Virus record (IMG/VR): IMGVR_UViG_3300043411_001266
Span: 1 to 50,974 of that record
Reading direction: 5' to 3' (one strand)
Source of the DNA: a virus
DNA: 50,974 bases
Shown: positions 23,101 to 50,974 of the stretch, piece by piece
Numbering within the stretch: position 1 is the stretch's first letter
Layout: each line of letters begins with the position of its first letter
Translations under genes and position numbers: made by a program
The notes under the pieces: model-generated
Told to the model about the DNA's origin: nothing
Database searches by the model: none
The model's input: only the letters and a program-made list of their open reading frames with translations

Positions 23101-23958
23101 ATATTCACTATTAGCTGCAACAAATTGTGCTGCATATCTTTGCTCTAAAGTCGATTCTTCTACCGATGGATAATAGTCAATTCCTGGATCTTGAATTGAC
23201 ACTTCATCAATTCCACCGGTAGAATCTACAGAAACAATTTTAATTCTTGCCCCACTACCAGAGGAATCACTTAACCGCGCAAAATCTCCTACGGCGTAAT
23301 CTCTACCAGTATCAGAAAATTCAATGGCAGAAAACATCCAGTGTAGTTTTACGACAGTATCTTCGAAACTAAGATTTTCTTCTAGTTCAAAATCTCCACT
23401 TGCACTATCAGGAGAGAAAAATAATTCGTAGACATGATAATTCCCCATCGAGAAACGAATCACTCGTTCGATGAAAACTGTTTCTCCTGAGATCGATCCG
23501 GTGACAGTTTTTCCGATTAGATCAAAAGGATCTCCAGAAACGATTGTCGTTCTAAAACTATTTTCACGAATCCACTTTCCATCATCGACTCGGAGAATAT
23601 CTTCCCCAGGATAATAAAAAGAAACCATCTTATCAAAAAATGCCCTGAAGAAAAATTGATAGGATTTTTCTGTCCCTTTAGCTCGATAGAAATCTTTGAT
23701 TTCTTTTAAGAGAATATTATCCCGAATGTGAATTTCTCTTGGGATGTTCGGAAGAAATTGCTTAAAGAAATATTCTAAAAATTCGTCGGATGTTCTGTCG
23801 ATGTCAAATGAGTTTGTTAGGTTTTTGACCCGATCCAAAATCTGGTTATCACTTTCCAACCATCGATAGTATGCTTCCACAAACAAAATAAATTGTGGAT
23901 GATCAGACTTTACGAAGTCTGGCATCTGAGACTGAATTTGAGTAGAAATTTTTGACAT
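11125..23958 (-). CDS. gp7: Giant baseplate wedge gp7 with multiple lectin-like modules
   Basis: This 4277-residue frame, over 12.8 kb without a stop, has a gp7-type N-terminus (FVKSDHPQFILFVEAYYRWL, EIKDFYRAKGTEKSYQFFFR). A gp7-type C-core lies near 3800-3890 (YLRDDYYYQEFSYALI, EYIKTLLHPAGTIMFGE). Between them sit three repeating module types. LamG/ConA-like units (EYLTIADNASLSFGD...GWI, WYFVV..HD) start near 285, 550, 2040 and 2440. Carbohydrate-binding-like units (NLLTYSEQIDNAAWTK, GGGWYRI, YTGDGVSGIYLYG) start near 720, 920, 1410, 1820, 2680, 2910, 3130, 3500 and 3615. Shorter ConA-like relatives lie near 1120, 1600, 2280 and 3325. A last ConA-like domain ends the protein. T4 gp7 is about 1030 residues and organises the wedge; here it probably also binds surface glycans (inference). 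Confidence 0.9.
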   Translation of the reverse strand: MSKISTQIQSQMPDFVKSDHPQFILFVEAYYRWLESDNQILDRVKNLTNSFDIDRTSDEFLEYFFKQFLPNIPREIHIRDNILLKEIKDFYRAKGTEKSYQFFFRAFFDKMVSFYYPGEDILRVDDGKWIRENSFRTTIVSGDPFDLIGKTVTGSISGETVFIERVIRFSMGNYHVYELFFSPDSASGDFELEENLSFEDTVVKLHWMFSAIEFSDTGRDYAVGDFARLSDSSGSGARIKIVSVDSTGGIDEVSIQDPGIDYYPSVEESTLEQRYAAQFVAANSEYLTIADNASLSFGDETFTFTGWIKFDDVLAQHTLLAKYHPATSNQEYLCYLEFSGGAKIYFQVSGNGTSDTSINSITDLGISLIASEWYFVVCWHDPVANIIGLSINEVSATKAHSAGCFNGVADFNIGAWNNGGTSGKHSGNIQYVGAWRRVLTSTERTELFNVGYGRSYSELTIAHKVSLISYWDLNELSGTRSDSHGTNHLADMNTVLWGNGLSTSDTIVSSARPLFYPHKNYLADSILPPDFETLNPNTFYAAGFNSGLNEYLTIDDNENLSRGDFDFTLSGWFYVAETDRTQTIVSKGDADSTYNKFEFIVEIDGTTRKAKFRVGNGSTHTATSANVVLQPYTWYFFVCEHDASDNLIGIRLNSGGINRVTHSGGSYDSAFPLMIAKPADIDVTITTPSTTETLNLEVNDNSIALISGRVAGWASVPTDSNENLITYSTDITNAAWNKATYPCSVSGVTVTATASAAKHGLYPAVSITPDIGMKVRQRIEVEYVNNQYIWVGEGNDVSWVGIIVDVQNGTITNVYQNVTAAKIEPRTGGGYVVSFEYVVQLASSRQAGVWFNNTASSSSPATYTPAGTEQFKLHNHTWQRAMYPNAHTLTTSAAVTGTIKTFTQATSGSRPCYTESQNLENLYTNSEVMGTLLSLTRSNTTANSAVAPDGASTADTLYDDGTGGSVSHAGTFASPSGGVVAGNTYRVSIYAKRKGTDARSLSLRSNFGGTGFALSYAHFDIINFVNNGSSGASIVQKIESVGNGWCRLIVEQVADLTTTSQNWAVMLFDTGTASAFYPGDGVSGVYVWGAQIQLIDADPTYLPTTSLPRFRGINGQRAMRFFGGQELSATTTLSSIFSDSAKILYVVARFNSQATGTSQEILLDSSAYFECRLPAAGTTLDFRNYDSNYDTASATVTINTPYIIRGRHSGGNLYIAIDSGNGFSSEVVAASGATGLLTGTLRLGGNSGSLYFNGDIAAILTWTDTVPDTELESRLREKYLVQRKQLNGKVSRLGMWDRLLTYEEHLHLYNLGAGRDYSSIHEDLKTGLISYWDLDEETGTRFDSYGENDLTSSADILDPTDINCIFDPEENVTVDDSNRVSSWGDDNSVLQNFVQSTANIRPYLTRSDNLENRIPYSEDLSDTTYVTYTRSTIAPSSISMSEVDLVSKFVEDSTATNTHLLTYLFGAGEGSTYRFSCFVKAGTKKYIRLAYDTVSYANFDLENGAIGETSTLITPKITPYDNDWYRIQITFAVTDETKKYVYLYLLDDERQTTYTGDGSKYIYLSGVQLNSSLADETYLKTTGSKQYRGQNGYPGIKFDGLEYMTSPSNFVDLFSENQKLLYLVFRTEYTGSSDKYILKESGDFFRLAINSTNIVAKNWDTALDTLTVPIASNATTIYRFRHENGKIFGSIDSGSGFTTDVEVVSGANPQLSGTISLGASAGASIFYGTIFSIITSRNLFSAPKIEQYLRKKYFVSSYGLPSVIKNKNLALWCKGERETGVSSFRISSWLDQSPNNLTFTDPGSTVRPYLSRTDNQGNYLIMSRNLSDGSWTKTNLAVVVDFTTNFDGSTTATKLTANAGTANHSANASTSWYRSSVGSPGKTYKYICYLKRSNYDYVWMGDGGDSLWHGTVFNLSTGTVVLNTNVASSSITSVGNGWYKCIIEFVSLSTSQNLVMYITFALAGTVSGSASTTLAGTEIILMGGAAIIENGWDETVLVTSGTVPEFPGINGKKSLVFLNTFNLPILQSTRTAALFTSANSESLSIADSSALSFGDTDFSIMGWVRIESTGADQYFVSKWNSTSTNQREYRLYFNNSTSLIRFGVSNDGTNETNITSSTIGFGTVTTSTWYFVVAWHDSVNNVIGLTINGTSGTSAHTTGMFNGSAPFQLGAASIPANTFLNGRLSNVSLWNRTLTTTEKTVFYNSGNALRYQDVPDFSGYKTSLLSWWNLDEASGTRYDKINLNHLTDNNTVTTATGPSYNPNETDFVNGNFHWFAVIKPITRVISRKYFIVHALTLDSASKPISGYAVYLSWNPTLERYRCVLKTVQDGVSTEIHSAIEIPFNQVSILEFKKFEDVGTIYLNGNPIGSGVLNNPTTPLKRFSISDATDYFQGYIPELLFYNESLTEDELFKIRTYLKEEWLTDPQEYTQNDSQQRNFTYVDFTEHAQTRLALSPHRQTSQLRNLRGSFWVAGFWVPEQSTDSMVLIQKGDDSSNVFGLRKTSGGYGEFFVTVDGTTTTTVQATNFGTTFNPNEKYFFYAEHIDFDRIGVSVNNDPLIYQSHAKGIYIIDRPINIGAINTTTTYSHGKVFKVCIGSGSLSESEREALYNGGQGLIYDDLPSGITEKLYAFWEMSEESLGLASTKRLNSIETVEPELVLDADDLTSDSWDLTATSAIIGFSPENMLPVDDDFETNWTQINGATTESNFIENPINENLDAARIIETVAAGSHELVSTDAVYCVNGLTYKFSVYVKSAGRDLTIKLPPALFSTTPTVNFDLTLGTVYSSSGTVDSSNIVGIGNDWYLCEVSAIADATGSSTLIKLCLAETPGVTSYTGDGNLGAYIYAPAFIETEHTTEDEETFLLAEDSTTGNHALSQSFNPISDLDDYILEQSPTLFLDPNYTTSDLENIIIQSEDITGSNWNIYRATRTANTVANPLTGTVTADTLTEDGTAANSHALEIATGIIVTGNSYSFSAYIKRAVGTRNVNIYLYSGFPANSFAYFDTSTGALVSAGAGLSSYSSEDAGSGWWRFTVTATATSNATTTPAYIYMASTGTITYNGDSTSALYVYGAHIRRASQLSTYVATTTLAKYAPTPTVDSVGRVGIIASRIGNVAFTQTTEANRPLLSNATRVENLLTYSEQIDNAAWTKYGASVSANSLANPIDGALTAETLIEDGSTGTHHVVQSPAIYAGIPYRFSFYAKAKERSRVYIAVGGSWSPSAGMHVNLSDGTITQTDSGSDWVGYVTDVGGGWYRIQTVGTSTASGTVNFYAILSNTLNNSSYTGDGVSGIYLYGMQMQRAEMYETYTATTAVPIYGSNTGKKMLVFDGSNDSMTSVSLASDILALAEKTTIVSALPFVTSGTHAIIMDTDGTVKYRIYIDTNLWATRNYDGSSDTQSSLTAVTNQLAVYGSVHDGTNIIAQLNTGANASTASGSTSSLGGTLRIGSGSATNYFNGPIGPIVVFNKVLSPEIYNTIVRGTVQHYLPYHQQTFDQHKLEFYVKPHGRSIVRLYLTGPGVNFRKGNIVITYTLTGSGTVSVSSYGGAIVPTIELVDDYYKCSLTYQMVVDGEFTTTIYLDNGSGISYAGSTNPSLDGYLGVFIKNISIKPVVPSERNIFPYPQQLDFGTTSQSTIYQNVELDPTYSLRNVDLLYETAANSTHLIYAPIAYVSAGETYRMTLKVKSYQRTACALRFDTGWAASSYAYFNLTGPVVHSVSGGVFNASITDIGGGWYQLSADCVAVTTSTLGYGSFYLSNTAGTISYTGTATPTHYGMYIHDFKLTLIDSETGVNNLRDPYTLSSFLDLEGFVASGEMVPTVQYSYPGYWLNEDGHLDTTKYLRDDYYYQEFSYALILDDSIDFYREYIKTLLHPAGTIMFGEFQYVNEISIDLETDIILDKEFSQSVLSLVSSIPTPQIGEPNIFVGVAIDLVSSLLEPTVSTGTGASSSAEVLSLTSSLPESSVYILSANEVLPFVMNITLQEPIASIPKIVSVDTFSIAVTLIEPTVTTVVDLDPSTLATVWAWWDADEDAYVDTYAGAPAGDGDDIEYVYSADGNGKRVLGVGPIKYRVNDADSNNNNCIDFNPTSEFVSHYLMSVPKGLKNNRSVITAVFSFRFELPFGDEGEDQQIFFMLTNDSTKTFIRVKADRSGGAGFRLYVASRRTSSDTLYTSTASSSFILSEDNWYTWIIEWDYTNNALYAYQNNKIVFNGDAISGSGGSTASNDAQSDGIIGSNSASDNPLRGKLGKAIIFTGALSADEKEHVNYVMAQHYGYSITPRDY
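12438..12447 (-). repeat. AGGGACGATT word, copy in gp7
   Basis: The word reads along the gene and encodes RDD within the conserved gp7 C-core (YLRDDYYYQEF). Confidence 0.6.
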
Positions 23959-39041: not shown

Positions 39042-40214
39042 ATGAAAATGATAACGACTAAACAAATAACATTAGTAGTGGTTGGTTTTGCAGCCGTTGT
39101 GTTGCTACTTTTGAGCAACAAAGTCTGGGAAACCAACAACGCCGGTTACATGCAAGTTAAACAAGATGCGATATCCGGAGAAATGTCAGTTCGTCTTGAG
39201 CCTGGTATGTATTACCAAGGATTTGCAAACATCACTACCTACAACGTGGCAGATGTTTATGATTTCAATTCCCCAGATTCGCAAATTAATGTAAGATTCA
39301 CAGACGCATCAGTTGCAAATATCGGTGGGCAAATAACATACAGATTACCAACAACTCAGGCTGAGGTGCTAAAGATTCATAAAGACTTTAGATCTTATGA
39401 ACCAATTCACAACAATATTATCAGACAGGTTGTAGCCGCTGCACTTAAACAAAGTGCAACTTATTTTACCGCCGAAGAGGTGTACTCGACACGTCGATCT
39501 GATTTTATTGATTTAGTAAATGATCAGATTAAGTTCGGAATTTATGCTACATCATATACAGAAGAGTGGAAGAAAGATGAAAATGGGGATGCAAATTTAA
39601 TTCGTCGGGTCAATTATCAAAGTGACAAAGATGGTCATCCGATTGTGTCAGAAGAAAGTGCATTTCACATATACGGAATCGAACTGATCCAGTTTGTGGT
39701 GGGTGATGTTGATTTCGATGAAAAAACAGACGCTCTGATTGCTAAAAGAAAAGAAGCTGAACAAGAACGTGTTGTCGCAAAAGCAAATGCCGAGAGAGCT
39801 AAGCAGGATACTATTACGGCTGTTGAACAAGGGAAAGCAAAGGTTGCTCTAGCCGAAGCCGCTGCACTGGTTGATAAGAAAACCGCTGTTGTAGCCGCTG
39901 AGAAAGAAACCGCAATTGCTGAACAGGTTGCGCTTCAAGCTGAACAACAAAAACGCGCCATCATTGCAAAGGGTGAAGCCGATGCGACCGCCGCGAAACT
40001 AAAGGTTGCCGCTGGTCTATCTCCACTTGAGAAAGCTAACATCGACAAGGATACAGCGATTGGTGTAGCCGCTGAACTTGCTAAGGTGAGGTTCCCACAA
40101 CTTATGGTCATTGGTGGTGGTTCGAACGGTGGTGCTATCAATCCATTCGATGCAGTTGGTTTAAAATCTCTCATCGATATCAGCAAAGATTTAAGTAATG
40201 GGGTTGCCAAATGA
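39042..40214 (+). CDS. SPFH/prohibitin-like membrane protein
   Basis: The 390-residue product starts with an N-terminal signal anchor (ITLVVVGFAAVVLLLLSN, residues about 8-26). An SPFH/band-7 domain follows to about residue 220 (RLEPGMYYQGFANITTYNVA, then VRFTDASVANIGGQITYRLP). Then comes a long Ala/Glu/Lys/Arg coiled coil (KRKEAEQERVVAKANAERAK). The C-terminus is Gly/Asn-rich. Prohibitin/HflK-type SPFH proteins form large membrane-bound ring or cage assemblies. In T4-like phages a comparable protein is rare but known; a role in membrane integrity or lysis timing is inferred only. AAAGGA precedes the ATG, and it overlaps the next small membrane gene by 4 nt. Confidence 0.85.
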   Translation: MKMITTKQITLVVVGFAAVVLLLLSNKVWETNNAGYMQVKQDAISGEMSVRLEPGMYYQGFANITTYNVADVYDFNSPDSQINVRFTDASVANIGGQITYRLPTTQAEVLKIHKDFRSYEPIHNNIIRQVVAAALKQSATYFTAEEVYSTRRSDFIDLVNDQIKFGIYATSYTEEWKKDENGDANLIRRVNYQSDKDGHPIVSEESAFHIYGIELIQFVVGDVDFDEKTDALIAKRKEAEQERVVAKANAERAKQDTITAVEQGKAKVALAEAAALVDKKTAVVAAEKETAIAEQVALQAEQQKRAIIAKGEADATAAKLKVAAGLSPLEKANIDKDTAIGVAAELAKVRFPQLMVIGGGSNGGAINPFDAVGLKSLIDISKDLSNGVAK

Positions 40215-40375: not shown

Positions 40376-40743
40376 AAATAAAAAATCCTCGTCGTAGAGT
40401 TCATGTTGTAATAACCTTTACCGATAACACAACATCCGAGGCTTGGATGGAAGTGTTAGATCATGGCCACGTTCTTCGATTCTTTAAGAGTATTGACGAG
40501 GACGATTGCATTGCATCAAGTACGATGAAAGATTGGACAATCAAAAAGTATGTCAACATAACTCAAGTTTTAAATGATTGGCAAAAGGAGCTTGGGTTCG
40601 AACCGATTATCTCTAGTGACGTTCACGATCTAACCAAAAGAATTTTTTCTGCCCTGATGAGCTATGCTCGACTCAATGAAACATTCGATGAAGACGGCGC
40701 AGCAATTATCACAATTAAAGATTTGGAAAAGTTTGGAGAATAA
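40372..40743 (+). CDS. Hypothetical protein ending LEKFGE
   Basis: The 123-residue product has a beta-rich start (RRRVHVVITFTDNTTSEAWM) and helical C-terminal half (DLTKRIFSALMSYARLNETF). It ends IKDLEKFGE, very like the end of the next protein (FEELKKFGE), which suggests that the tail was duplicated. The codons of that tail contain GGAG and serve as the ribosome site of the next gene. Confidence 0.7.
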   Translation: MKIKNPRRRVHVVITFTDNTTSEAWMEVLDHGHVLRFFKSIDEDDCIASSTMKDWTIKKYVNITQVLNDWQKELGFEPIISSDVHDLTKRIFSALMSYARLNETFDEDGAAIITIKDLEKFGE

Positions 40744-40970
40744 TGATGAGTAAACTAATCGAAGAATTTAAACGAGTATATGGAGCGCCAAGAAACGGAG
40801 AAAAATTTTCTGATTTCGAACTTCAAATTCTGGGACATTGGCAAATTTGTTATGTTACTATTTTAGAAAGTATGAGAGAGGTAGCTCGTGGAACAATATT
40901 GTCCAGTGGAGAAAACTGGTCCAATGTGTTGAATATTGATTTCGAAGAACTAAAAAAGTTTGGGGAGTAG
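40743..40970 (+). CDS. Hypothetical protein ending LKKFGE
   Basis: The ATG at 40743 overlaps the preceding stop; the ATG at 40746 is equally possible. The 75-residue product (LIEEFKRVYGAPRNGEKFSD, LESMREVARGTILSSGENWS) shares the C-terminal -L-KFGE with its neighbour. Function unknown. Its final AAGTTTGGGGAG again doubles as the ribosome site of the following gene. Confidence 0.65.
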   Translation: MMSKLIEEFKRVYGAPRNGEKFSDFELQILGHWQICYVTILESMREVARGTILSSGENWSNVLNIDFEELKKFGE

Positions 40971-41185: not shown

Positions 41186-41409
41186 AGATCTACGGTAGGG
41201 GCAAAAATCTAGACTGTCTACTTCTAGTCAATGGAGACTATGTGGAAAATGGTGCTTATCGAGGGAAAATTAATAAGCAAGGAAATTTTGAGATTATCAA
41301 TCCCGATACAGGCAGAAAGAAAATAGCAAAGTATCTAGGTGAAGCTCCAAAAGGTGAGCATTATAATGACATCCTTGAGAAGTTTAGAAAACAGAGAAAA
41401 TCAAAATGA
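41182..41409 (+). CDS. Hypothetical basic small protein
   Basis: The 75-residue product is beta-rich and basic (NLDCLLLVNGDYVENGAYRG, FEIINPDTGRKKIAKYLGEA) and ends in a Lys/Arg tail. It resembles small KOW/SH3-like barrels in pattern, but this is only an impression. Confidence 0.6.
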   Translation: MKIYGRGKNLDCLLLVNGDYVENGAYRGKINKQGNFEIINPDTGRKKIAKYLGEAPKGEHYNDILEKFRKQRKSK

Positions 41410-41690
41410 CCATTTTTGTTGCTTGGGCAGTTGCGGGTTTCTGGTTCGGTGCTTGGATAAAGCTTTGTGGGGAAGAAAGTAACATGCGCTTATTTCCAAT
41501 TGTCAGTATGAACGATCCAAAATATACAGATGTCACCAACACTATTCAGTTTAAGATTCATCTGAATTTTGATTTTCTGTTCGATAGAAAATTGCAAAAT
41601 TTTGGTGAACATAGTTTTGAAAACAATCTTCAACTGGACCCAATCAAAAAATTACTTCAAAATAGTAGACAGGTAGAAATTTATGAGTGA
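41406..41690 (+). CDS. Hypothetical protein with hydrophobic N-terminus
   Basis: The frame starts with an ATGA overlap and a hydrophobic segment (TIFVAWAVAGFWFGAWIKLC) that could anchor it in the membrane. An internal ATG at 41484, preceded by GGGGAAG, would give a 68-residue soluble form (RLFPIVSMNDPKYTDVTNTI). The C-terminal part is soluble. Function unknown. Confidence 0.55.
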   Translation: MTIFVAWAVAGFWFGAWIKLCGEESNMRLFPIVSMNDPKYTDVTNTIQFKIHLNFDFLFDRKLQNFGEHSFENNLQLDPIKKLLQNSRQVEIYE

Positions 41691-41919
41691 TAAAGACGCA
41701 ACATATATGACCACAGAGGCCGCATTTCTATGTACGACATCCAACAAAACCAGATCTATTATCATGGATCACACTTATAATAAAATTCCATTTCAATTGA
41801 TGTCGAAGGTTGAGAAGTTATACAAGCACGATCTGTATTGGTTGTGGGATAAGGCTGGTCAAGACACATACATTTGTAATTTAATTAGACATCCGGACAT
41901 GAGGATGGATTTTCAATGA
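41683..41919 (+). CDS. Hypothetical protein
   Basis: The 78-residue product (TEAAFLCTTSNKTRSIIMDH, EKLYKHDLYWLWDKAGQDTY) has no recognised domain. It overlaps its left neighbour by 8 nt and the first array gene by 4 nt. It lacks the two-helix pattern of the array and marks its left border. Confidence 0.6.
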   Translation: MSDKDATYMTTEAAFLCTTSNKTRSIIMDHTYNKIPFQLMSKVEKLYKHDLYWLWDKAGQDTYICNLIRHPDMRMDFQ

Positions 41920-42083
41920 TCAACGAAACTCTAATTGATGTGAAATTAAAATTTGTTCTTATACAAACCATATTCAATGTAGTTGATCCACAGTTGAGGA
42001 TAGTTTCAGAAACTATCGAAGATGGATTTTCTGATTTGCTTGATAATACAATGATAGACGTAGATCAAGAAACACAAGAATGA
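41916..42083 (+). CDS. Micro-gene array member 1
   Basis: This 55-codon frame is joined at both ends by ATGA overlaps. The product begins INETLIDVKLKFVLIQTIFN and continues RIVSETIEDGFSDLLDNTM. The first segment is an amphipathic helix with the spacing I..K.K..I of the family. The second matches the family end pattern (I...I..GF...L). It is below the usual length cut-off for gene calling. Confidence 0.6.
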   Translation: MINETLIDVKLKFVLIQTIFNVVDPQLRIVSETIEDGFSDLLDNTMIDVDQETQE

Positions 42084-42265
42084 GCCAATATCCTTATCCC
42101 GAACAAACCAAAATGAGATTGAAACTGGAACAGATTGAGAAAAATCTGTATGCCCAATTAGGACGCTCGAAACTTGCGAGGACCGGCGCAATCAATGGAT
42201 ATCTCTTAGCCCAGGATATTAAAAAACAAATTACACACACTCTACGAAGGGCTGAGTATCGATGA
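42080..42265 (+). CDS. Micro-gene array member 2
   Basis: The 61-residue product reads EQTKMRLKLEQIEKNLYAQL, then LARTGAINGYLLAQDIKKQI. It ends with an Arg-rich helix (THTLRRAEYR). It is more basic than most members. ATGA overlaps on both sides. Confidence 0.6.
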   Translation: MSQYPYPEQTKMRLKLEQIEKNLYAQLGRSKLARTGAINGYLLAQDIKKQITHTLRRAEYR

Positions 42266-42525
42266 AGTGGGATCTCGCAGGACAAATTTATATGAACAGT
42301 CCAATCCAAAAGGACGTTGATTACAAAATTCGTGGTCCGATGGAGCGAATGGTGCTGAATACTGTAAATTTATTCATAATTCCACTAGCTCAAAACATCA
42401 TAAGAGATGCGATTAATAAACGAACGACAGACGATGTTCTACACTATCCTTATTCGGTTAATTTGAATATACTAAAGAATTCGGAACGACCGAGGGTTAT
42501 AAAGAGAAAGCGACTAAAGAAATGA
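42262..42525 (+). CDS. Micro-gene array member 3
   Basis: At 87 residues it is joint longest in the array. The first helix is DVDYKIRGPMERMVLNTVNL, followed by IIPLAQNIIRDAINKRTTDD, and a strongly basic tail (RPRVIKRKRLKK). ATGA overlaps join it to both neighbours. Confidence 0.6.
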   Translation: MKWDLAGQIYMNSPIQKDVDYKIRGPMERMVLNTVNLFIIPLAQNIIRDAINKRTTDDVLHYPYSVNLNILKNSERPRVIKRKRLKK

Positions 42526-42737
42526 AACGCGCATATACAAACAATCCAATTCACTTATTGATAGATCGAACAATTCGCGGAGCATTAAATCTAAACATAA
42601 AAGACTTTATTAGTTATTCTCCATGCCGGACATTCATGATGGTAAATGATAAAGCCAACGTTCTAATTCGATCTTCACAAGTTAAAATGCACTACCCACC
42701 AATTTTTTCTAATTTGGCCACGATATCAAATGAGTGA
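42522..42737 (+). CDS. Micro-gene array member 4
   Basis: The 71-residue product contains PIHLLIDRTIRGALNLNIKD and VNDKANVLIRSSQVKMHYPP. The second block fits the D-KV--LI pattern of the family's C-terminal helix. It stops 6 nt before the next ATG. Confidence 0.6.
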   Translation: MKRAYTNNPIHLLIDRTIRGALNLNIKDFISYSPCRTFMMVNDKANVLIRSSQVKMHYPPIFSNLATISNE

Positions 42738-42743
42738 GAAACC

Positions 42744-42959
42744 ATGAAATCAGTTAGAACAGTCTCTAGAAAAATTCGTTATCGAATTAATACAATGATT
42801 CACGAGGATGTTAGTTTTCGAGTTGAAAACAGTTTTCTCAATGAACATTGTTTAAGAGTGGATAAGATGCATGACAATACAGAAAAACTAATCGGGGAAC
42901 ATTTTAAATTGTTTTTTCGGTTTTCTCGAAGCAAGTTACCAAGGGATTATTTCCGATGA
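42744..42959 (+). CDS. Micro-gene array member 5
   Basis: The 71-residue product has VSRKIRYRINTMIHEDVSFR near its start and RVDKMHDNTEKLIGEHFKLF later. These two blocks align well with the member at 46020 (ARKVDYRISDKM, IHDKVDKFLDEDL), the best evidence of shared descent in the array. GAAACC precedes the ATG, and the stop overlaps the next start. Confidence 0.65.
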   Translation: MKSVRTVSRKIRYRINTMIHEDVSFRVENSFLNEHCLRVDKMHDNTEKLIGEHFKLFFRFSRSKLPRDYFR

Positions 42960-43168
42960 ATATAATGTTAGAAGAGGTTCGAGATAATGTCAGGTATCAT
43001 ATTAGCCTTAAGATATATGATATGCTAATTGTACAATCTCCATTGAGAAACCGTGAGAGAGATTTACATCCATATCAATTACTCCACAAAAATGCAGAGA
43101 TATTGAATAACGAACAATTGCAAAATTATTTTGCAGGTCTTCGCGAGATAAGGTATGAAAAAATTTGA
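42956..43168 (+). CDS. Micro-gene array member 6
   Basis: The 70-residue product reads EEVRDNVRYHISLKIYDMLI, then LHPYQLLHKNAEILNNEQLQ and NYFAGLREIR. The NYFAGL end corresponds to NYFVGL in the member at 46020. It overlaps the next gene by 14 nt. Confidence 0.65.
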   Translation: MNIMLEEVRDNVRYHISLKIYDMLIVQSPLRNRERDLHPYQLLHKNAEILNNEQLQNYFAGLREIRYEKI

Positions 43169-43364
43169 TCCAATAGAATTGAGATATGGTCGTTCAATAA
43201 GTCGGATTGAAAGTGCCTTGGATCTCCACATCAGAAAGTTTTTGATTTTCAGTGAATATATCTCAGCGCCCCATAGTGATTACTTCGAAAATATGGGTAC
43301 ATCAATTTCAAAACTAACGAGAAATTCTGGGTATGCGAGGTGTCCCATATATGTTAAACATTAA
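43155..43364 (+). CDS. Micro-gene array member 7
   Basis: The 69-residue product contains IELRYGRSISRIESALDLHI and RKFLIFSEYI, then ISKLTRNSGYARC. LTRNSGYAR resembles LARNTGDAK in the member at 43912, and the first helix (SISRIESALDLHIRKFLIF) aligns with that member's AITNIELVLDKAVKIFVAC. Confidence 0.6.
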   Translation: MKKFDPIELRYGRSISRIESALDLHIRKFLIFSEYISAPHSDYFENMGTSISKLTRNSGYARCPIYVKH

Positions 43365-43527
43365 TAACAAGATCATCGATGCGATTCATCATGCCGGACT
43401 TCAGATTAATAGAGAACTACAAAGTAAACTTTCTGATGTGATTGATCAGAGGTGGAGGGCAGAAGTGATACATCATGATCTTGAAAGAGCAATCGAATCA
43501 ACGATGGACAGGAGAGAAACAGAGTGA
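43351..43527 (+). CDS. Micro-gene array member 8
   Basis: The start is set at the ATG at 43351. The 58-residue product reads LNINNKIIDAIHHAGLQINR, then HHDLERAIESTMDRRETE. The end matches DIERAIRNSMDRDE of the member at 45814 and GIDRAIENSFDR of the member at 43706. Confidence 0.65.
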   Translation: MLNINNKIIDAIHHAGLQINRELQSKLSDVIDQRWRAEVIHHDLERAIESTMDRRETE

Positions 43528-43709
43528 TGGATACGGTCGAAAATTCCCACATCTTTAATTCAATCGATGACAAAATTTCGGAAATGCAGTACAAATTAGA
43601 TTTTCATTGTTTCAAAGAAATATTAGAATCGAATATCGTGATGATTCCGATGGTATTGGTAATTGAACACGCAATTGGTCAATCATTGTCCAGGGACGAT
43701 TTGTTATGA
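43524..43709 (+). CDS. Micro-gene array member 9
   Basis: The 61-residue product starts with FNSIDDKISEMQYKLDFHCF and ends VIEHAIGQSLSRDDLL. The last codons are the AGGGACGATT word (43692-43701), whose AGGGA may also serve as ribosome site for the ATG at 43706. Confidence 0.6.
   Translation: MMDTVENSHIFNSIDDKISEMQYKLDFHCFKEILESNIVMIPMVLVIEHAIGQSLSRDDLL
43692..43701 (+). repeat. AGGGACGATT word, end of array member 9
   Basis: The word encodes the C-terminal SRDD and lies 4 nt before the next ATG. Confidence 0.65.
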
Positions 43710-43915
43710 GTTTTAGAAGCTGGTGGTACAATCGCAGTTCTACACGCGCACAGAAATTTTTCACGATTGAAAGTGCTATGAATAAGGTTAATGAGGAATT
43801 ACGAATCAAAATTTCTCGTGAACTTACACAAACACATTTCGTAACTCAGAGAAATCTTATGAATGGAATTGATCGAGCAATTGAAAATTCGTTTGATCGG
43901 GTCAGGTTACAATGA
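43706..43915 (+). CDS. Micro-gene array member 10
   Basis: The 69-residue product has a Trp/Arg/Ser-rich start (SFRSWWYNRSSTRAQKF), then FTIESAMNKVNEELRIKISR and NLMNGIDRAIENSFDRVRLQ. It carries the family's I-RAI-NS-DR ending. ATGA overlaps on both sides. Confidence 0.65.
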   Translation: MSFRSWWYNRSSTRAQKFFTIESAMNKVNEELRIKISRELTQTHFVTQRNLMNGIDRAIENSFDRVRLQ

Positions 43916-44115
43916 ACAGCTTTTCAATAAAGTCCAAACCAATTTTTCCTAGTTTGGCTATAACAAATATTGAGTTAGTCTTAGATAAGGCTGTTAAAAT
44001 TTTTGTTGCTTGTGGAGTTGCTTCTGGCACAATAATCGATGAAGAACAAATATATTTTGATGAAGTTGCGAGGTTGGCCAGAAACACCGGAGATGCTAAG
44101 ATTTTAAAAGGATAA
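43912..44115 (+). CDS. Micro-gene array member 11
   Basis: The 67-residue product reads FPSLAITNIELVLDKAVKIF, then VACGVASGTIIDEEQIYFDE and LARNTGDAKILKG. Its middle is more hydrophobic than in other members, but not long enough for a clear membrane span. It stops 2 nt before the next ATG. Confidence 0.6.
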   Translation: MNSFSIKSKPIFPSLAITNIELVLDKAVKIFVACGVASGTIIDEEQIYFDEVARLARNTGDAKILKG

Positions 44116-44117
44116 TT

Positions 44118-44291
44118 ATGGATGCCGTTAACAAAATTGAAGAATGTATTCACACCGAAATTAGTTCTAAGATGTTTAGTCCCTTGAGTTCAATTTCGTT
44201 CTCAATTCCGATCACGATTCTCACAGATATAAAAAAATTCATTAGGGGAAAACAGATATTAGACTTCGATTGGTGGAAAGATGAAGAATAA
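44118..44291 (+). CDS. Micro-gene array member 12
   Basis: The 57-residue product reads DAVNKIEECIHTEISSKMFS, then SFSIPITILTDIKKFIRGKQ and ends FDWWKDEE. It follows AAGGATAATT and overlaps the next ATG by 11 nt. It is one of the frames too short for routine calling. Confidence 0.6.
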   Translation: MDAVNKIEECIHTEISSKMFSPLSSISFSIPITILTDIKKFIRGKQILDFDWWKDEE

Positions 44292-44484
44292 AATTTACTC
44301 CGCGCAACACAACATTGAGATATCGATTCACACTTGGGAGCGAAGGATGTGTGACAAAATTAATCTAATATTTCTTCCTGCTGAACATCCCAGAACAGGA
44401 AAGTTATATGAAATCAGTTTTGCGATTGATAATTCATTGGTTAGACATTCCAGAATTGAAGAAGGAGTTAATTTCGAATTATGA
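44281..44484 (+). CDS. Micro-gene array member 13
   Basis: The 67-residue product reads NKIYSAQHNIEISIHTWERR, then MCDKINLIFLPAEHPRTGKL and EISFAIDNSLVRHSRIEEG. The FAIDNSLVR end is a shifted form of the AI-NS-DR pattern. ATGA overlap to the next gene. Confidence 0.6.
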   Translation: MKNKIYSAQHNIEISIHTWERRMCDKINLIFLPAEHPRTGKLYEISFAIDNSLVRHSRIEEGVNFEL

Positions 44485-44678
44485 ACCTGAGACACATCAT
44501 AGGCGATCAATGTATGAAAATAATATCAACATCACTTAAGGATTCGGTGAACAGCCAAGTATTGTTTTACACAACGATCTCCGTTTTCCCATCAAACTTT
44601 AATATCCAACAAAATTCCAACGATAAGAAAATTTTCGAGGAAGTGCATTTTCCCATAATCGACAGATACCACACATGA
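44481..44678 (+). CDS. Micro-gene array member 14
   Basis: The 65-residue product reads NLRHIIGDQCMKIISTSLKD, then NSQVLFYTTISVFPSNFNIQ. It is one of the more diverged members; only the first helix follows the family spacing. ATGA overlaps on both sides. Confidence 0.55.
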   Translation: MNLRHIIGDQCMKIISTSLKDSVNSQVLFYTTISVFPSNFNIQQNSNDKKIFEEVHFPIIDRYHT

Positions 44679-44923
44679 ATGACACCGAATCGTCCCTGAA
44701 TCCACATCGACTAGATGCCCGTGTTCATAACCGTATCAATCTGTTCATTCTGGATATTCGATGTGCAAAACAAGAATCAGTTGAGAATTCACCGATGGGT
44801 TCTGTAGTCCCATCGTCAATTTTATTTGAAGTTGATGAAGTGGTTAGTCGATCAATTCCTGAACGATTGGTGGTAGCGTTAGCGCCTTTGGTAGACAGAG
44901 ATGGATTCTCCAGGGACGATTGA
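44675..44923 (+). CDS. Micro-gene array member 15
   Basis: The 82-residue product reads LNPHRLDARVHNRINLFILD, then SILFEVDEVVSRSIPERLVV and ends DRDGFSRDD. It contains the AGGGACGATT word twice, once inverted at 44688 (encoding ESSL) and once direct at 44912 (encoding RDD), so one gene shows the same DNA word read in two ways. Confidence 0.6.
   Translation: MNDTESSLNPHRLDARVHNRINLFILDIRCAKQESVENSPMGSVVPSSILFEVDEVVSRSIPERLVVALAPLVDRDGFSRDD
44688..44697 (-). repeat. AGGGACGATT word, inverted, in array member 15
   Basis: The word lies opposite to the gene, which encodes ESSL there. Confidence 0.6.
44912..44921 (+). repeat. AGGGACGATT word, end of array member 15
   Basis: The word encodes the final RDD and precedes the next ATG by 3 nt. 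Confidence 0.65.
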
Positions 44924-44924
44924 T

Positions 44925-45122
44925 ATGACAGAACCAACAGACTTTCAAATTAGGTTGGAACTTAATTTCGATAAGAAAATTACTAGGAATTTTGACGCAA
45001 TCATATGGTCTGAAATAGAAATCTATCTTTTTGTTCTGGCTCATGAGATAGTTAACGGTGGAGTGAATAATTCAATTCATCCTTCAAACTATAGGATCAA
45101 TCATGGAAAATCTTTAACATGA
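44925..45122 (+). CDS. Micro-gene array member 16
   Basis: The start is the ATG at 44925, one base after the preceding stop and 8-12 nt after AGGGA; an upstream in-frame ATG at 44901 is possible. The 65-residue product reads DFQIRLELNFDKKITRNFDA, then WSEIEIYLFVLAHEIVNGGV. It ends over the first copy of a duplicated leader (45091-45110). Confidence 0.55.
   Translation: MTEPTDFQIRLELNFDKKITRNFDAIIWSEIEIYLFVLAHEIVNGGVNNSIHPSNYRINHGKSLT
45091..45110 (+). repeat. Duplicated leader, copy 1
   Basis: ATAGGATCAATCATGGAAAA here matches 45339-45358 at 19 of 20 bases. In this copy the ATG is followed by a stop after four codons, while in copy 2 it starts a real gene. This looks like a remnant of tandem duplication within the array. 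Confidence 0.6.
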
Positions 45123-45334
45123 GCGACAATCCGTTTTCTGTAATTAATCACGCCATACATATTCAAATTAAAAATCGATTGCATAATATAATGTCGTTTG
45201 GTGATTTGTATCGGCATCAAGCAAGAGAAAAAATATTTCATATAATTGATTGGCGACATCACAAACTTTCTATGGGTATTGTTAAAGGGCATCCATATTC
45301 GTATGATGAATTGAACCTTTCTAAAAAGAAATAA
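45119..45334 (+). CDS. Micro-gene array member 17
   Basis: The 71-residue product reads PFSVINHAIHIQIKNRLHNI, then YRHQAREKIFHIIDWRHHKL. It is rich in His (9 residues). The last codons are Lys-rich (NLSKKK). It starts with an ATGA overlap and ends 16 nt before the next gene, the largest gap in the array. Confidence 0.6.
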   Translation: MSDNPFSVINHAIHIQIKNRLHNIMSFGDLYRHQAREKIFHIIDWRHHKLSMGIVKGHPYSYDELNLSKKK

Positions 45335-45338
45335 AATT

Positions 45339-45358
45339 ATAGGATTAATCATGGAAAA
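45339..45358 (+). repeat. Duplicated leader, copy 2
   Basis: ATAGGATTAATCATGGAAAA is the second copy of the leader at 45091-45110; here its ATG (45351) opens the next array gene. Confidence 0.6.
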
Positions 45359-45614
45359 ACATTCGGACATTAAAAAATTTGTTGATACAAGAATAGACCA
45401 GAAACTATCTTTTATATTTTCGACTGTTACATCGTCGGTTATTAATCAACTGGATAAAAATCAAATGATTCAAGTCCTATCCATCAAAGATAAAATTTTT
45501 GAGCGTGTTGATGACACGATTTTCTCCAGTAGGTTAAATCTTAAAACCAGTATGTCGGCGAATATTCAACAAGCAATCTTGAAGTCGGTTATGAATTTAG
45601 TGGGACCAGCATGA
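45351..45614 (+). CDS. Micro-gene array member 18
   Basis: The 87-residue product reads DIKKFVDTRIDQKLSFIFST, then LSIKDKIFERVDDTIFSSRL and ends SANIQQAILKSVMNLVGPA. It appears to hold more than one copy of the family helix pattern. Its start lies in the duplicated leader. ATGA overlap to the next gene. Confidence 0.6.
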   Translation: MEKHSDIKKFVDTRIDQKLSFIFSTVTSSVINQLDKNQMIQVLSIKDKIFERVDDTIFSSRLNLKTSMSANIQQAILKSVMNLVGPA

Positions 45615-45817
45615 ATCCAACACTAGCAATCGAAGGTGCAATTAATCAAATAAACCAGGCATCAGATAAAATCGCCACAAAAATTCAAGTCTCCATGGTT
45701 AATACAATGTCCGGTCAATTGAATAAAATTTGGCCAGATGCTAAGATGATAGTCTCGATATCACAATCGATACGCGAACCAATACTCAAAATTGTGAACA
45801 GAGGATTAGGATTATGA
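45611..45817 (+). CDS. Micro-gene array member 19
   Basis: The 68-residue product reads LAIEGAINQINQASDKIATK, then MIVSISQSIREPILKIVNRG. It is uncharged in the middle (VSMVNTMSGQLNKIWPD). ATGA overlaps on both sides. Confidence 0.6.
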   Translation: MNPTLAIEGAINQINQASDKIATKIQVSMVNTMSGQLNKIWPDAKMIVSISQSIREPILKIVNRGLGL

Positions 45818-46023
45818 AGAAAGAAGATAATCATGAAATTGCAGGACTTCTAGTTGATGAAGTTTGTTTTAAACTCGAAGACGCAATCTCACTTCAGATT
45901 TATGTTGAGGTGCAGAGAAAGACAAGAATCATGAATGCAGATTCATATTCGGCCAGAATGCAAGCCGGTATGCCAATGGATATCGAACGCGCAATCAGGA
46001 ATTCTATGGACAGGGACGAATGA
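45814..46023 (+). CDS. Micro-gene array member 20
   Basis: The 69-residue product reads EIAGLLVDEVCFKLEDAISL, then PMDIERAIRNSMDRDE at the end. This is the clearest example of the family C-terminal block. The last codons read AGGGACGAAT, a one-base variant of the repeated DNA word. Confidence 0.65.
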   Translation: MKKEDNHEIAGLLVDEVCFKLEDAISLQIYVEVQRKTRIMNADSYSARMQAGMPMDIERAIRNSMDRDE

Positions 46024-46229
46024 TCTCAATAGGAACAGTTGCGAGAAAAGTAGACTATAGGATAAGTGATAAGATGTGTGCTAAATTTTCACATAATATT
46101 ATTGATCATATCATCTTATCACAGTTAAAAAATGAGGTGAATAAAATTAGTATGATTCACGATAAAGTTGATAAGTTTCTCGATGAAGATTTAGAGAATT
46201 ATTTTGTGGGGTTGAACAGGGACGATTAA
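46020..46229 (+). CDS. Micro-gene array member 21
   Basis: The 69-residue product reads VARKVDYRISDKMCAKFSHN, then ISMIHDKVDKFLDEDLENYF and VGLNRDD. It is the best single representative of the array: two amphipathic helices and the RDD end encoded by AGGGACGATT (46218-46227), which lies just before the next ATG. Confidence 0.65.
   Translation: MISIGTVARKVDYRISDKMCAKFSHNIIDHIILSQLKNEVNKISMIHDKVDKFLDEDLENYFVGLNRDD
46218..46227 (+). repeat. AGGGACGATT word, end of array member 21
   Basis: The word encodes the final RDD plus the first base of the stop, and precedes the next ATG by 3 nt. Confidence 0.65.
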
Positions 46230-46230
46230 T

Positions 46231-46416
46231 ATGAATGAAAAATTTGTTACTAACTTACACAATAAAATAAGTCTAGCAATTTGGCGTGAGATGAATCTAA
46301 AATCAAGCGTCAATATGATATCATCTGGTGAGTTTACGGCTGATAAGTTAATTTATTCCCCACTCCGAGCCTTTCGTCCTAGAGATTATCATACTATACT
46401 ACTCAGATGGATATGA
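46231..46416 (+). CDS. Micro-gene array member 22
   Basis: The 61-residue product reads KFVTNLHNKISLAIWREMNL, then YSPLRAFRPRDYHTILLRWI. The ATG follows AGGGACGATTAAT. The RPRDY segment resembles LPRDY in the member at 42744. Confidence 0.6.
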   Translation: MNEKFVTNLHNKISLAIWREMNLKSSVNMISSGEFTADKLIYSPLRAFRPRDYHTILLRWI

Positions 46417-46619
46417 ATCTAAGAAACGACTCCATTAGTATTCGAATAAACGACACGTTAAATTCATTGCTCAATCCAGTAATGACCTTAGAGACTTGTT
46501 TACTCATAGAAAAATTACATAGCAAAGTTTATTTGGTTGTTCAAGAACAATTCTATCAATTAGAATCTCAGAGCAATTTGGATAGAAGGGCAAAGCTATT
46601 CGGGTTTAAAATTATATGA
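46413..46619 (+). CDS. Micro-gene array member 23
   Basis: The start is the ATG in the ATGA overlap at 46413. The 68-residue product reads RNDSISIRINDTLNSLLNPV, then LIEKLHSKVYLVVQEQFYQL. The LHSKV---V-EQF-QL block matches LHKNAEILNNEQLQNYF of the member at 42956. Confidence 0.6.
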   Translation: MNLRNDSISIRINDTLNSLLNPVMTLETCLLIEKLHSKVYLVVQEQFYQLESQSNLDRRAKLFGFKII

Positions 46620-46840
46620 ACAAACCAAACTCGTCCCTGAAACAAATCGATATCAGATATAACATTCAATACCACATCGACGAAAAACTCATCAAAAAAT
46701 TGTATTCGGATGCATTGGCATTAAGACTCCAAACGAAGGTTTCGCTTGTGATTGATCTCGCAAGATGTTTTGATAGGAAGCAACTTGATCCAAACTGTTC
46801 AGAAATTATTATTAATCCAAGGACGATTTATCATGAGTGA
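46616..46840 (+). CDS. Micro-gene array member 24
   Basis: The 74-residue product reads QIDIRYNIQYHIDEKLIKKL, then LRLQTKVSLVIDLARCFDRK. It ends NPRTIYHE, where AAGGACGATT (46818) falls in another frame from RDD. It overlaps the next gene by 8 nt. Confidence 0.6.
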   Translation: MNKPNSSLKQIDIRYNIQYHIDEKLIKKLYSDALALRLQTKVSLVIDLARCFDRKQLDPNCSEIIINPRTIYHE

Positions 46841-47033
46841 CAACGATGGACACAAACCGAACATTACCATCAATCGAAAAGTGAACGAAAAGATCCGCGA
46901 AACACTTGAACGTACCATGTATACGTTATGTGTCGTTAATTTAATTACGGTTGCGTCTTTCAAAATTCTCTACACAATTGATAGGGAGATTGGGGATAGT
47001 TATTCCGCACCACATATACAAGATCTTTTTTAA
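46833..47033 (+). CDS. Micro-gene array member 25 (last)
   Basis: The ATG at 46833 follows AAGGACGATTTATC. The 66-residue product reads ITINRKVNEKIRETLERTMY, then SFKILYTIDREIGDSYSAPH. It closes the array, 28 nt before the convergent end of the tape-measure-like gene. Confidence 0.6.
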   Translation: MSDNDGHKPNITINRKVNEKIRETLERTMYTLCVVNLITVASFKILYTIDREIGDSYSAPHIQDLF

Positions 47034-47061: not shown

Positions 47062-49836
47062 CTACCACCCACCATTAGTGATCGACCGATCTTCAGTTCG
47101 AACAAATGACGGTTCGTTGTTTCGAACATTCTTAGCAAGTGTAGTAACGCTTGTGTTACTAGTATTGTTATTCACATTGTTAACAACCGGAACAACAGGC
47201 TGACCGGTCATCATTCGAGTCTGATCATCCTTCATTGCCTTTCTGTACTCTTCTAATTTTTTAGCAGACTCATTATCAGACCCCATCATTTCAGATCTGT
47301 TATACTCATCACGCTTTCCAAGCACACCCGGAACATACGCCTGAGTTTCTTTAAATGGGGGGATACCGCCGTATTTGTCCACGTTCCCCATTCCACCATT
47401 GTAAGCAGCCAGAGCTAGCCTCTCATCTCCCTTATAACGCCGTTTAAGCATTGCAAAGTATTTTGCTCCACCTTTAACGTTCTGTTCAGGATCATGAGGA
47501 TTAACACCCATATCGCTGGCCGTCCCTGGCATCAGTTGAGTTAATCCGACCGCACCCACCGGAGACCTAGCACCAGGACGAAAACGCGATTCTTGCCAAA
47601 TTAGAGCCTTTAGGAGATTCGGTTCAATTCCGTAAATGTTGGCATATTTCTGAATCCAACCAGCCATCTCCCCAGTTAGCCCACCTTTATCAAGTGGTTT
47701 CTGAGGTTTAGCAAAGTTTTGAAGTTGAGAATTTACAGAACTAATCCGATTATCGACTTTATCAGTAATCGTCCCTGTTTCACTTTTCCCAAACCAGCCC
47801 TTAACCTTATCCATCCAACCTGATCGATTATCCGTAGTTCTTGCATTTGCCTCAGAATCCTCAAACCTAATGTTGTTATTGATAATTACCGATTCATCAT
47901 CGATAATTCCAGCCTTCATCAAGTAGCGTTTAAATAACTGTTCATTACTAGTCTTTAATTCAATCAGTTTTTTCTCTAGTGCAGAGATCTCTATTTCACG
48001 TTCGACTAGTCTTGATGATTTTTCTCCAGTTAGGCGAGCATGTTCTAAGGACGATTTTTTCTCTTTGATCATCTTGGACAGGTCATCTTCCAATACCTGA
48101 CCAATTCCTTTCTGTTCCTTAGCCTTATCAAGCCAAGGTTCACCCATAATGAAATTGAACTTTGATTCTGTATCCTTAACGAATTCAGAAATACCACCCG
48201 TGATTGAATTCCAACCCCTTGATAAATTTCCAGCCTCTTTTAAAAAGATATCAACAATCTTTTTGTGAGCATCATCAAAGGTACTTTCGATGGTTTTTGC
48301 TAATTGTTCTTCAGAATCAAATCCCGCAGCCTTAGCACCAAATATTTTCTTTCCAAGTTTCGATTCGATGTAATCACCAATATCAGTTCCCTCAAGTGCC
48401 GAGAGACTTCCACGGTTTATCACCTTAGCTAATCGAGTCGATGTTCCAGACGTTCCCCATTTTTCAGAATCTCCATTGTCTAACAATCCGCTTGCGGTAT
48501 ATCCAAGCTGTGCAAATAATGGGAGTAATGCCGCATTTGTTGCAAGACTACCGGCCATTCCACCAGCCGCGCCAAGTGCTAATCGTCCCTTGCCTAATAA
48601 GTGTCCAGCAGTTCCAGCAATCCCTTTTGATTTTAATAATCCAACAAGCCAAGTGCCAATACCACCAGCAGCACCAGCTTTTAGGAGATCGCTAGTTCCT
48701 GTATCAGATCCACCAGTAGGTTGTTCTCCTGTGGACATTCTAGAAACACTAGCAAGTGCAGCAGAATTTCTCAGACCGGGGAAAGCTGGCAACCGGGACG
48801 ATTCCATCTGATTCTCTAAATTCTTTAGAGAATTAATTCTTTCCTGATCAAGCATCTCATCATTGGATAGAACTAAATCACCCAAGTACCGGACAGTCAT
48901 CTTCCCTTGATCAACAATCAGATCAAGATAGTCCGAGTGAACTTCTAATTCCCTTAAGACCTTTTCATCCGTTGCACTACTATCAGCCCATGGATCATAC
49001 ATCTGGTTATAGTGTGGTTCATTATATTTTAAAGCCGGTCCATCATCATCGTCATCATCCCAAACTTTCTTTTTTTTCTTATCCAGTAATTCAGAGTTTG
49101 AAACTAATTGTTTTTTCCTCTCAGATTCTAATTGCGCCTTAACAACTAGCGCATCATTTCGCTTTGCTTCATTATCCCGCGCCTTCCGTTCACGCCGAGC
49201 CTCTAGTAATGAAGATGTCTGACTCTTAATAAATCCAAATGCAGCCGATGATAAAGGATCATCAGACAATCCGCGCTCAATAACCCCAACAAAACCTTCA
49301 ACTAGTCCCTTTGATTTCTTAACAAAAAATTCCTTAGTCTTTTTCGTGAATGCATTTCGTTCATCATGATCGGCTTTAATAGCAACACGCATCAACTCGA
49401 CTTGATTCTCAAATGCCTTGATCTCTCCATCGTCCTTGAGCATTAACCTTGCATTTTCAGAAAACTTATTCAGTCTATTCAGATTCGATTTTAAATCTCT
49501 TCCATCAGTCGATTTTTTAGCAGCATCCAATATCTCTTTAAAGACTTCGGATATTTCCTCAGACTTATTTGACATCCTACCATGTAGAGATGTGAACTTT
49601 GTTATCTCATCCATCTGAGATTTCAAATTGGCGTATAACTGTTCAGACTTGGACAGGGACGATTTGATTAATAGATTTTCCTTAGCCTCGATTTCACTAA
49701 TCAATTTCTTAAATTCTGGATTGCTCGATACCTTATTTCGTTCCCGAACTTCAGCCCGTTGCTTTTCAATTGCGTCATCGAGTTTCTTATTCGGATCGAT
49801 TTTATCTTTCATCTTTGCTTTCTTGTAGTTGCTCAT
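47062..49836 (-). CDS. Tape-measure-like tail protein with lytic transglycosylase domain
   Basis: The 924-residue product has a long charged coiled-coil N-terminal region (to about residue 340, including a DDDDDG stretch near 262). A hydrophobic Gly/Ala region near 390-450 (AGAAGGIGTWLVGLLKSKGI) follows. An SLT domain lies near 720-860: IYGIEPNLLKALIWQESRF with the catalytic Glu near 749, VGLTQLMPGTASDMGVN, and ALAAYNGGMGNVDKYGG. Soluble lytic transglycosylase domains cleave peptidoglycan during entry. The layout of coil, hydrophobic part and SLT, after a gp26 frameshift cassette, is that of a tape-measure protein (the role of T4 gp29); this is inference. The gp5-like spike here lacks lysozyme, so this may supply it. 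The gene start overlaps the -1 frame by 35 nt. Confidence 0.85.
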   Translation of the reverse strand: MSNYKKAKMKDKIDPNKKLDDAIEKQRAEVRERNKVSSNPEFKKLISEIEAKENLLIKSSLSKSEQLYANLKSQMDEITKFTSLHGRMSNKSEEISEVFKEILDAAKKSTDGRDLKSNLNRLNKFSENARLMLKDDGEIKAFENQVELMRVAIKADHDERNAFTKKTKEFFVKKSKGLVEGFVGVIERGLSDDPLSSAAFGFIKSQTSSLLEARRERKARDNEAKRNDALVVKAQLESERKKQLVSNSELLDKKKKKVWDDDDDDGPALKYNEPHYNQMYDPWADSSATDEKVLRELEVHSDYLDLIVDQGKMTVRYLGDLVLSNDEMLDQERINSLKNLENQMESSRLPAFPGLRNSAALASVSRMSTGEQPTGGSDTGTSDLLKAGAAGGIGTWLVGLLKSKGIAGTAGHLLGKGRLALGAAGGMAGSLATNAALLPLFAQLGYTASGLLDNGDSEKWGTSGTSTRLAKVINRGSLSALEGTDIGDYIESKLGKKIFGAKAAGFDSEEQLAKTIESTFDDAHKKIVDIFLKEAGNLSRGWNSITGGISEFVKDTESKFNFIMGEPWLDKAKEQKGIGQVLEDDLSKMIKEKKSSLEHARLTGEKSSRLVEREIEISALEKKLIELKTSNEQLFKRYLMKAGIIDDESVIINNNIRFEDSEANARTTDNRSGWMDKVKGWFGKSETGTITDKVDNRISSVNSQLQNFAKPQKPLDKGGLTGEMAGWIQKYANIYGIEPNLLKALIWQESRFRPGARSPVGAVGLTQLMPGTASDMGVNPHDPEQNVKGGAKYFAMLKRRYKGDERLALAAYNGGMGNVDKYGGIPPFKETQAYVPGVLGKRDEYNRSEMMGSDNESAKKLEEYRKAMKDDQTRMMTGQPVVPVVNNVNNNTSNTSVTTLAKNVRNNEPSFVRTEDRSITNGGW
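47767..47776 (-). repeat. AGGGACGATT word, copy 1 in tape-measure-like gene
   Basis: The word reads along the gene in the frame giving GTI (ETGTITDKV). Confidence 0.6.
48581..48590 (-). repeat. AGGGACGATT word, copy 2 in tape-measure-like gene
   Basis: The word reads along the gene in a third frame, giving GRL (GKGRLALG). Confidence 0.6.
48795..48803 (+). repeat. GGGACGATT word, copy 3 in tape-measure-like gene
   Basis: The core is preceded by C and lies opposite to the gene, which encodes ESSR there. Confidence 0.45.
49655..49664 (+). repeat. AGGGACGATT word, copy 4 in tape-measure-like gene
   Basis: The word lies opposite to the gene, which encodes KSSLS there. Confidence 0.6.
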
Positions 49837-50859: not shown

Positions 50860-50862
50860 ATT

Positions 50863-50974
50863 ACCAACGGAGCTACCAACGGAGCTACCAACGGAGCTAC
50901 CAACGGAGCTACCAACGGAGCTACCAACGGAGCTACCAACGGAGCTACCAACGGAGCTACCAACGGAGCTACCA
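50863..50974. repeat. 12-bp tandem repeat running off the window
   Basis: The unit ACCAACGGAGCT is repeated without change nine times, plus four bases, to the end of the window; the true number is unknown. The unit is a multiple of three and open in five frames. On the plus strand an ATG at 50824 gives [13 protein letters not shown] followed by (TNGA)n; on the minus strand the repeat gives (LVAP)n. It may be a repetitive coding segment or a non-coding iteron array. Confidence 0.85.

Follow-up and report, generated by a model that had tools for sequence, protein, structure and literature searches.

The window analysed here is the whole 50,974-base stretch of the linear virus record IMGVR_UViG_3300043411_001266, which is probably a fragment. 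Its plus strand carries, between positions 41916 and 47033, an array of small genes designated g01 to g25. At a cut-off of at least 50 amino acids (aa), 25 open reading frames (ORFs) of 55 to 87 codons cover 99.5% of this DNA, and 14 of the 24 junctions are four-base ATGA (−4) overlaps. For comparison, 500 random order-1 sequences with the composition of the array were generated. On average these contained 5.5 ORFs covering 20% of the sequence, and 0.06 ATGA junctions; the maxima were 15 ORFs, 53% coverage and 2 ATGA junctions. An earlier model-made reading of the sequence (hereafter the original prediction) had described an almost gapless run of about 25 tiny frames, mostly joined by ATGA overlaps, and this description was confirmed. 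The layout supports one translationally coupled operon, presumably expressed as a single transcript. Sigma-70-like promoter matches in the array region were at or below chance, in a scan covering the sigma-70 type only. Starts were revised for g08 (43351, most likely), g09 (43527, or a GTG at 43524), g16 (44925, not 44901) and g23 (46413), and the last gene, g25, was set at 46833-47033 (66 aa).

The array carries a coding signal. Shine-Dalgarno (SD) energy at the array starts was −4.7 kcal/mol, against −1.9 kcal/mol at the other ATGs within the array (p = 1.5e-6). When codon use was modelled on other plus-strand genes, the named frame ranked top of six for 20 of the 25 genes; with a model derived from minus-strand genes it did so for 13. 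Hydrophobic residues in the products recur at lags 4, 8 and 12 (autocorrelation z 7.0, 4.7 and 3.0), a rhythm that was much weaker in control small genes. At the DNA level the lag-4 and lag-8 signal is restricted to codon position 2 (for T, z 6.7 and 5.6), and positions 1 and 3 are not raised. Selection therefore acts on the protein. An origin of the rhythm in a 12-base DNA repeat was ruled out on the same ground.

The original prediction also held that the frames form one family. This stood for most of the array, and four or five members remain unproven. All-against-all Smith-Waterman (SW) comparison of the 25 proteins (BLOSUM62) gave 17 pairs scoring at least 40. Shuffled sets gave a mean of 1.4 such pairs (maximum 6), and shuffles that kept the hydrophobic/polar pattern a mean of 2.3 (maximum 8). 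Two pairs named in advance, g05/g21 (42744/46020) and g08/g20 (43351/45814), were best or near-best. Leave-one-out (LOO) hidden Markov model (HMM) profiles, in which each member is scored against the others, placed 19 of 25 members above plain shuffles and 12 of 25 above pattern-preserving shuffles (p ≤ 0.05); in pattern-shuffled control sets the numbers passing were 1-6 and 0-2, respectively. Against 276 control small genes from viral loci (21 from elsewhere in the window, the rest from other phages), 16 of the 25 members ranked within the best 1% and 21 within the best 5%. When members were joined by single linkage at z > 3, 21 were united, leaving g02, g13, g14 and g15 unlinked. The array profile matched the window itself in 21 places, as expected of a profile built from those genes. 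These comparisons support the view that most members belong to one highly diverged family; on sequence similarity, at least 16 to 21 of them would descend from one ancestral gene and have diverged almost beyond recognition.

The gene at 41406-41690, upstream of the array, is a probable 26th member. Its product has a hydrophobic, possibly membrane-spanning N-terminus followed by a family-like region, and scored 5.8 bits against the array HMM (p 0.00 versus shuffles, 0.01 versus pattern-preserving shuffles). It was a recurrent top scorer among the control small genes.

Tandem duplication, proposed as the origin of the array, was not borne out in any recent form. Similarity between members showed no dependence on distance along the array (Spearman −0.003), so that block or neighbour duplication left no sign and the duplications appear to be old or since reshuffled. 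Separately, a 23-base stretch is 91% identical between 41412-41434 in the 41406 gene and 43999-44021 in g11, both on the plus strand (FVAWAVAG and FVACGVAS); it is a possible trace of exchange between members.

Related 3' ends had been cited as a further sign of tandem duplication, and this argument did not survive. The C-terminal ends NRDD, SRDD and DRDE are encoded by AGGGACGA(T), a 10-mer that recurs across the whole window. The common ends are therefore no evidence of protein homology or of tandem duplication. The repeat, AGGGACGATT, has 14 exact copies in the window, where 0.05 would be expected; they fall on either strand and in several reading frames. With up to one mismatch allowed, the number of copies rises to 23 (3.2 expected). 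Copies lie inside and outside genes and are densest from 43.6 kb to the window end (about 51 kb). The repeat occupies the ribosome-binding positions of g10, g16, g21, g22 and g25; besides the copy at g10, those at 44912 and 46218 are exact and those at 46012 and 46819 carry one mismatch. No exact copy was found in 956 kb of related T4-like loci, and an IMG/VR scan for an ATG preceded by the ribosome-site motif gave single, scattered matches among the matches listed. At least two exact copies of the motif occurred in only three sequences: 14 in the window and 2 in each of two others. The repeat may be a replication, recombination or regulatory site. It resembles the Start-Associated Sequences of cluster K mycobacteriophages, in which a short repeat stands just before several start codons (PMC3203893), in being a short phage-specific repeat that precedes several gene starts. 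It differs from them in sequence and in lying also within genes and on both strands, whereas Start-Associated Sequences almost always mark starts and share a single orientation (PMC3203893).

Of the protein motifs described by the original prediction, the N-terminal amphipathic helix and a C-terminal helical segment were supported as features of these diverged paralogues, whereas the C-terminal RDD motif is largely the DNA repeat. No column is invariant among the members. AlphaFold2 models, with the paralogues as alignment, placed a helix across nearly all of g21 and g20, with a mean predicted local distance difference test (pLDDT) score of 89 and 80, respectively. Several members have mid-sequence prolines, and these would form two helices plus a linker. 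A fold search with the g21 and g20 helix models gave no matches; a lone helix holds little fold information. Lag 7 of the hydrophobic autocorrelation is not raised (z −0.6), nor are lags 3 and 11. A left-handed heptad coiled coil, for which lags 3, 4, 7 and 11 are expected, was accordingly rejected. The family keeps a hydrophobic residue at every fourth position, which would form a narrow stripe on the helix and leave the remaining surface free to vary.

Table 1. Array genes, adjoining genes and repeat copies in the window. dG, SD energy; LOO rank, position of the leave-one-out score among the control small genes.
Feature	Coordinates	Strand	Description	Support
SPFH/Band 7 protein	39042-40214	+	prohibitin/HflC-like	Pfam PF01145, E 6e-17
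Probable 26th member	41406..41690	+	94 aa; ATGA overlap with preceding gene	
Small gene coupled to g01	41683..41919	+	membership unsupported	HMM 1.8 bits, p 0.10
g01	41916..42083	+	55 aa	ORF, ATGA coupling, SD dG -8.5, LOO rank 2.2%
g02	42080..42265	+	61 aa; family membership unproven	
g03	42262..42525	+	87 aa	LOO rank 0.7%
g04	42522..42737	+	71 aa	LOO rank 3.3%
g05	42744..42959	+	71 aa; pair partner g21	SW 67, z 8.0 / 5.3
g06	42956..43168	+	70 aa; pair partner g21	SW 59, z 8.3 / 4.7
g07	43155..43364	+	69 aa; pair partner g11	z 7.1 / 5.7
g08	43351..43527	+	58 aa; start 43351 preferred; pair partners g20 and g10	SW 56, SD dG -9.8
g09	43527..43709	+	60 aa; alternative GTG start 43524	LOO rank 0.4%
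g10	43706..43915	+	69 aa	LOO 11.4 bits
g11	43912..44115	+	67 aa; weak by HMM (45%) but paired with g07	
g12	44118..44291	+	57 aa	
g13	44281..44484	+	67 aa	
g14	44481..44678	+	65 aa; membership unproven	
g15	44675..44923	+	82 aa	
g16	44925..45122	+	65 aa; starts after AGGGACGATT; membership unproven by HMM	
g17	45119..45334	+	71 aa	
g18	45351..45614	+	87 aa	LOO 13.0 bits
g19	45611..45817	+	68 aa	
g20	45814..46023	+	69 aa; one-long-helix model	mean pLDDT 80
g21	46020..46229	+	69 aa; similarity-network hub; one-long-helix model	mean pLDDT 89
g22	46231..46416	+	61 aa	
g23	46413..46619	+	68 aa	
g24	46616..46840	+	74 aa	
g25	46833..47033	+	66 aa; last gene, convergent with tail gene	
Tail protein with SLT transglycosylase domain	47062..49836	-	late gene; ends conserved tail block; adjoins array	
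AGGGACGATT at ribosome-binding position of g10	43692..43701	+		
AGGGACGATT exact copies	26704, 28681, 33073, 43692, 44912, 46218, 49655, 50766, 50850	+		
AGGGACGATT exact copies	6403, 12438, 44688, 47767, 48581	-		

The minus strand of the window carries a T4-like tail and baseplate block comprising a gp6-type wedge, a hub and lysozyme, a sheath stabiliser, a hub and the SLT-transglycosylase tail protein. From about 29.5 kb the plus strand consists of accessory genes, including a methyltransferase and the SPFH/Band 7 protein. By these genes the phage is assigned to an orphan T4-like lineage of bacterial viruses. It is called orphan because the closest gp6 match reached 38.6% identity in GenBank phages and 40% in IMG/VR, and a 1935-aa structural protein reached a best identity of only about 41%. 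The array lies on the strand opposite to the late genes, is convergent to them and prolongs the accessory plus-strand block. In relatives that bear the hub gene, its place after the tail block is taken by other genes, which are generally larger and form no such run, and the locus is therefore regarded as variable; the relatives used for this comparison are only 30-33% identical.

Elsewhere in the window, a 4277-aa open frame (11125-23958, minus strand) directly follows the gp6 gene, and its repeated segments, read by eye, resemble concanavalin-type (LamG-like) domains. Two neighbouring plus-strand genes have near-identical ends (DLEKFGE and ELKKFGE; 40718-40742 and 40945-40969, 76% over 25 bases). 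A perfect 12-base tandem repeat, TACCAACGGAGC, occupies 50862-50974 in at least 9.4 copies and extends past the contig end; it is probably the reason that assembly ended there.

Searches for homologues of the array were negative. No convincing match was obtained for any of the 25 proteins by tblastn against GenBank phages (E up to 10), for any member in Pfam, PHROGs or PDB sequences, or for the family profile in 70 further viral records, seven of them complete T4-like genomes. An IMG/VR peptide-pattern scan revealed no array homologue, and an Rfam scan gave chance matches only. PADLOC, which covers anti-phage defence families, likewise gave no convincing match. Its best hit, a Csn2-like match of g18 (E 4.6e-4, a 56-residue helical stretch), was judged to be chance or a generic helix, because it involved one of 25 members and 5027 models, lay in a helical stretch and was not common to other members. 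In a scan of 3.28 Mb of viral sequence (window included; whole or nearly whole Melnitz, HTVC008M, S-CRM01, S-CAM3, S-PM2 and one 169-kb IMG/VR record among the inputs), no run outside the array exceeded 10 such genes. The same scan returned 29 genes with a pair-similarity z of 15.4 at the present locus; the longest run in S-PM2 had 10 genes and a z of 2.1.

The reading preferred here, with a probability of about 0.42, is that a coupled operon in a variable accessory region encodes about 25 (probably 26) small, mostly helical proteins that serve host takeover or counter-defence. One ancestral small gene would have been copied and have diverged within a single translationally coupled operon, and its products would act on the host as soluble helical binders. 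These binders may have different host targets, each copy being tuned to another target or target variant. The host-directed part is drawn by analogy with the SPO1 takeover genes (PMC6873191) and with the variable S-PM2 ORFanage (PMC4503421). A more specific version, in which one helical scaffold in about 26 copies meets a different host or defence protein with each copy, as a phage counterpart of eukaryotic-virus immune-evasion families, is doubtful. Several results weigh against the host-directed reading. No member had a convincing inhibitor, defence or counter-defence match, where PADLOC represents defence families, and the collections searched, which may omit records very near the window, yielded no close relative. 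The profile test failed for g02, g11, g14 and g16, with g11 linked through its pair with g07. Charge diversification, considered as a sign of different targets, was not unusual, the spread of member charge being ordinary (standard deviation 4.5 versus 4.3 in other small genes). The divergence of the paralogues may also reflect age alone.

The chief rival, rated as unlikely, is that the members bind one another in a hetero-oligomer or filament of similar helical subunits, with coupling setting stoichiometry and assembly order. The common stripe, spaced by four residues and persisting over several turns, is consistent with this, as are the strict translational coupling and the single-long-helix models of g21 and g20, which would need a partner to bury the stripe. 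However, 25 different subunits are far above the need of known hetero-oligomers, member lengths and middles vary, and the rhythm is 4-4-4 with no rise at lag 7 (z −0.6), unlike the heptad 3-4 spacing of ordinary left-handed coiled coils. Convergence, in which unrelated small amphipathic ORFans look alike because all are short helical proteins, could account for the low individual scores, the lack of an invariant column and the four unlinked members, and in S-PM2 small coupled ORFans have accumulated although they do not form one family. It is improbable, since pair and profile similarity exceed those of pattern-keeping shuffles and of the 276 control genes, and the mean pair score lies 15 standard deviations above shuffles here against 2 in the S-PM2 run. 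That the array adjoins the late tail block would suit virion proteins, internal to the head or ejected, whose genes lie close to those of the tail, but its opposite strand, its convergence on the late genes, its continuity with the accessory block and the lack of any match between members and virion families make packaging of the products quite improbable. The least credible explanation, already largely contradicted, is that a single long helical repeat protein was broken into pieces by stops and frameshifts. The fairly even unit length (about 200 bp) and the relatedness of the pieces would fit this. Decay of that kind would not, however, produce ATG-over-stop overlaps of four bases at 14 of the 24 junctions, nor would it preserve ribosome-binding sites and the periodicity at codon position 2.

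The accessory regions of T4-like phages are full of small ORFans, most of which lack an explanation. For this array, the sequence alone shows largely one ancestor and selection at the protein level for a simple helical pattern. The array thus offers a direct route to asking how small host-directed proteins arise and multiply in phages, and its two dozen natural variants of one scaffold could serve in interaction screens.

Large eukaryotic viruses such as African swine fever virus carry multigene families, tandem diverged paralogues thought to act against host defence. As a tandem run of diverged paralogues the array is like them, with no homology implied; the proteins of those families are generally much larger and their genes lack operon coupling. 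Another comparison is with genes 37-60 of Bacillus phage SPO1, its host takeover module, a cluster of about 26 mostly small, early genes (PMC6873191). The SPO1 genes belong to several operons, which have promoters of their own and are known to be expressed early, and the available part of their account describes no common family (PMC6873191).

The nearest likeness is the ORFanage of the T4-like cyanophage S-PM2, a run of small ORFan genes (ORF 017-050; AJ630128) that is variable and whose loss during laboratory passage was accompanied by increased plaque growth (PMC4503421). Both are contiguous one-strand runs of small genes without database relatives in a variable region of a T4-like phage. 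Four-base overlaps join 18 of 53 junctions in the S-PM2 stretch examined, and the array, too, is not found at its place in relatives, themselves only 30-33% identical. The claim that no described system resembles the array therefore fails for the layout, which the ORFanage shares (PMC4503421), and stands for the single family that makes up most of the array. The ORFanage is not one family, and its genes, which reach 266 aa, are mostly unrelated to each other, whereas array members are mostly paralogous. It does hold a few small paralogue groups; p031, p041 and p042 are alike (SW 51-80; 9101-9292, 11880-12167 and 12160-12390 of the stretch examined). Against the S-PM2 genome the best match of the array profile, in a frame of 273 codons, had an E of 0.02 and was not convincing. 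Clusters of small ORFans in T4-like phages were thus already known, and what is new here is the large expansion of a single family.

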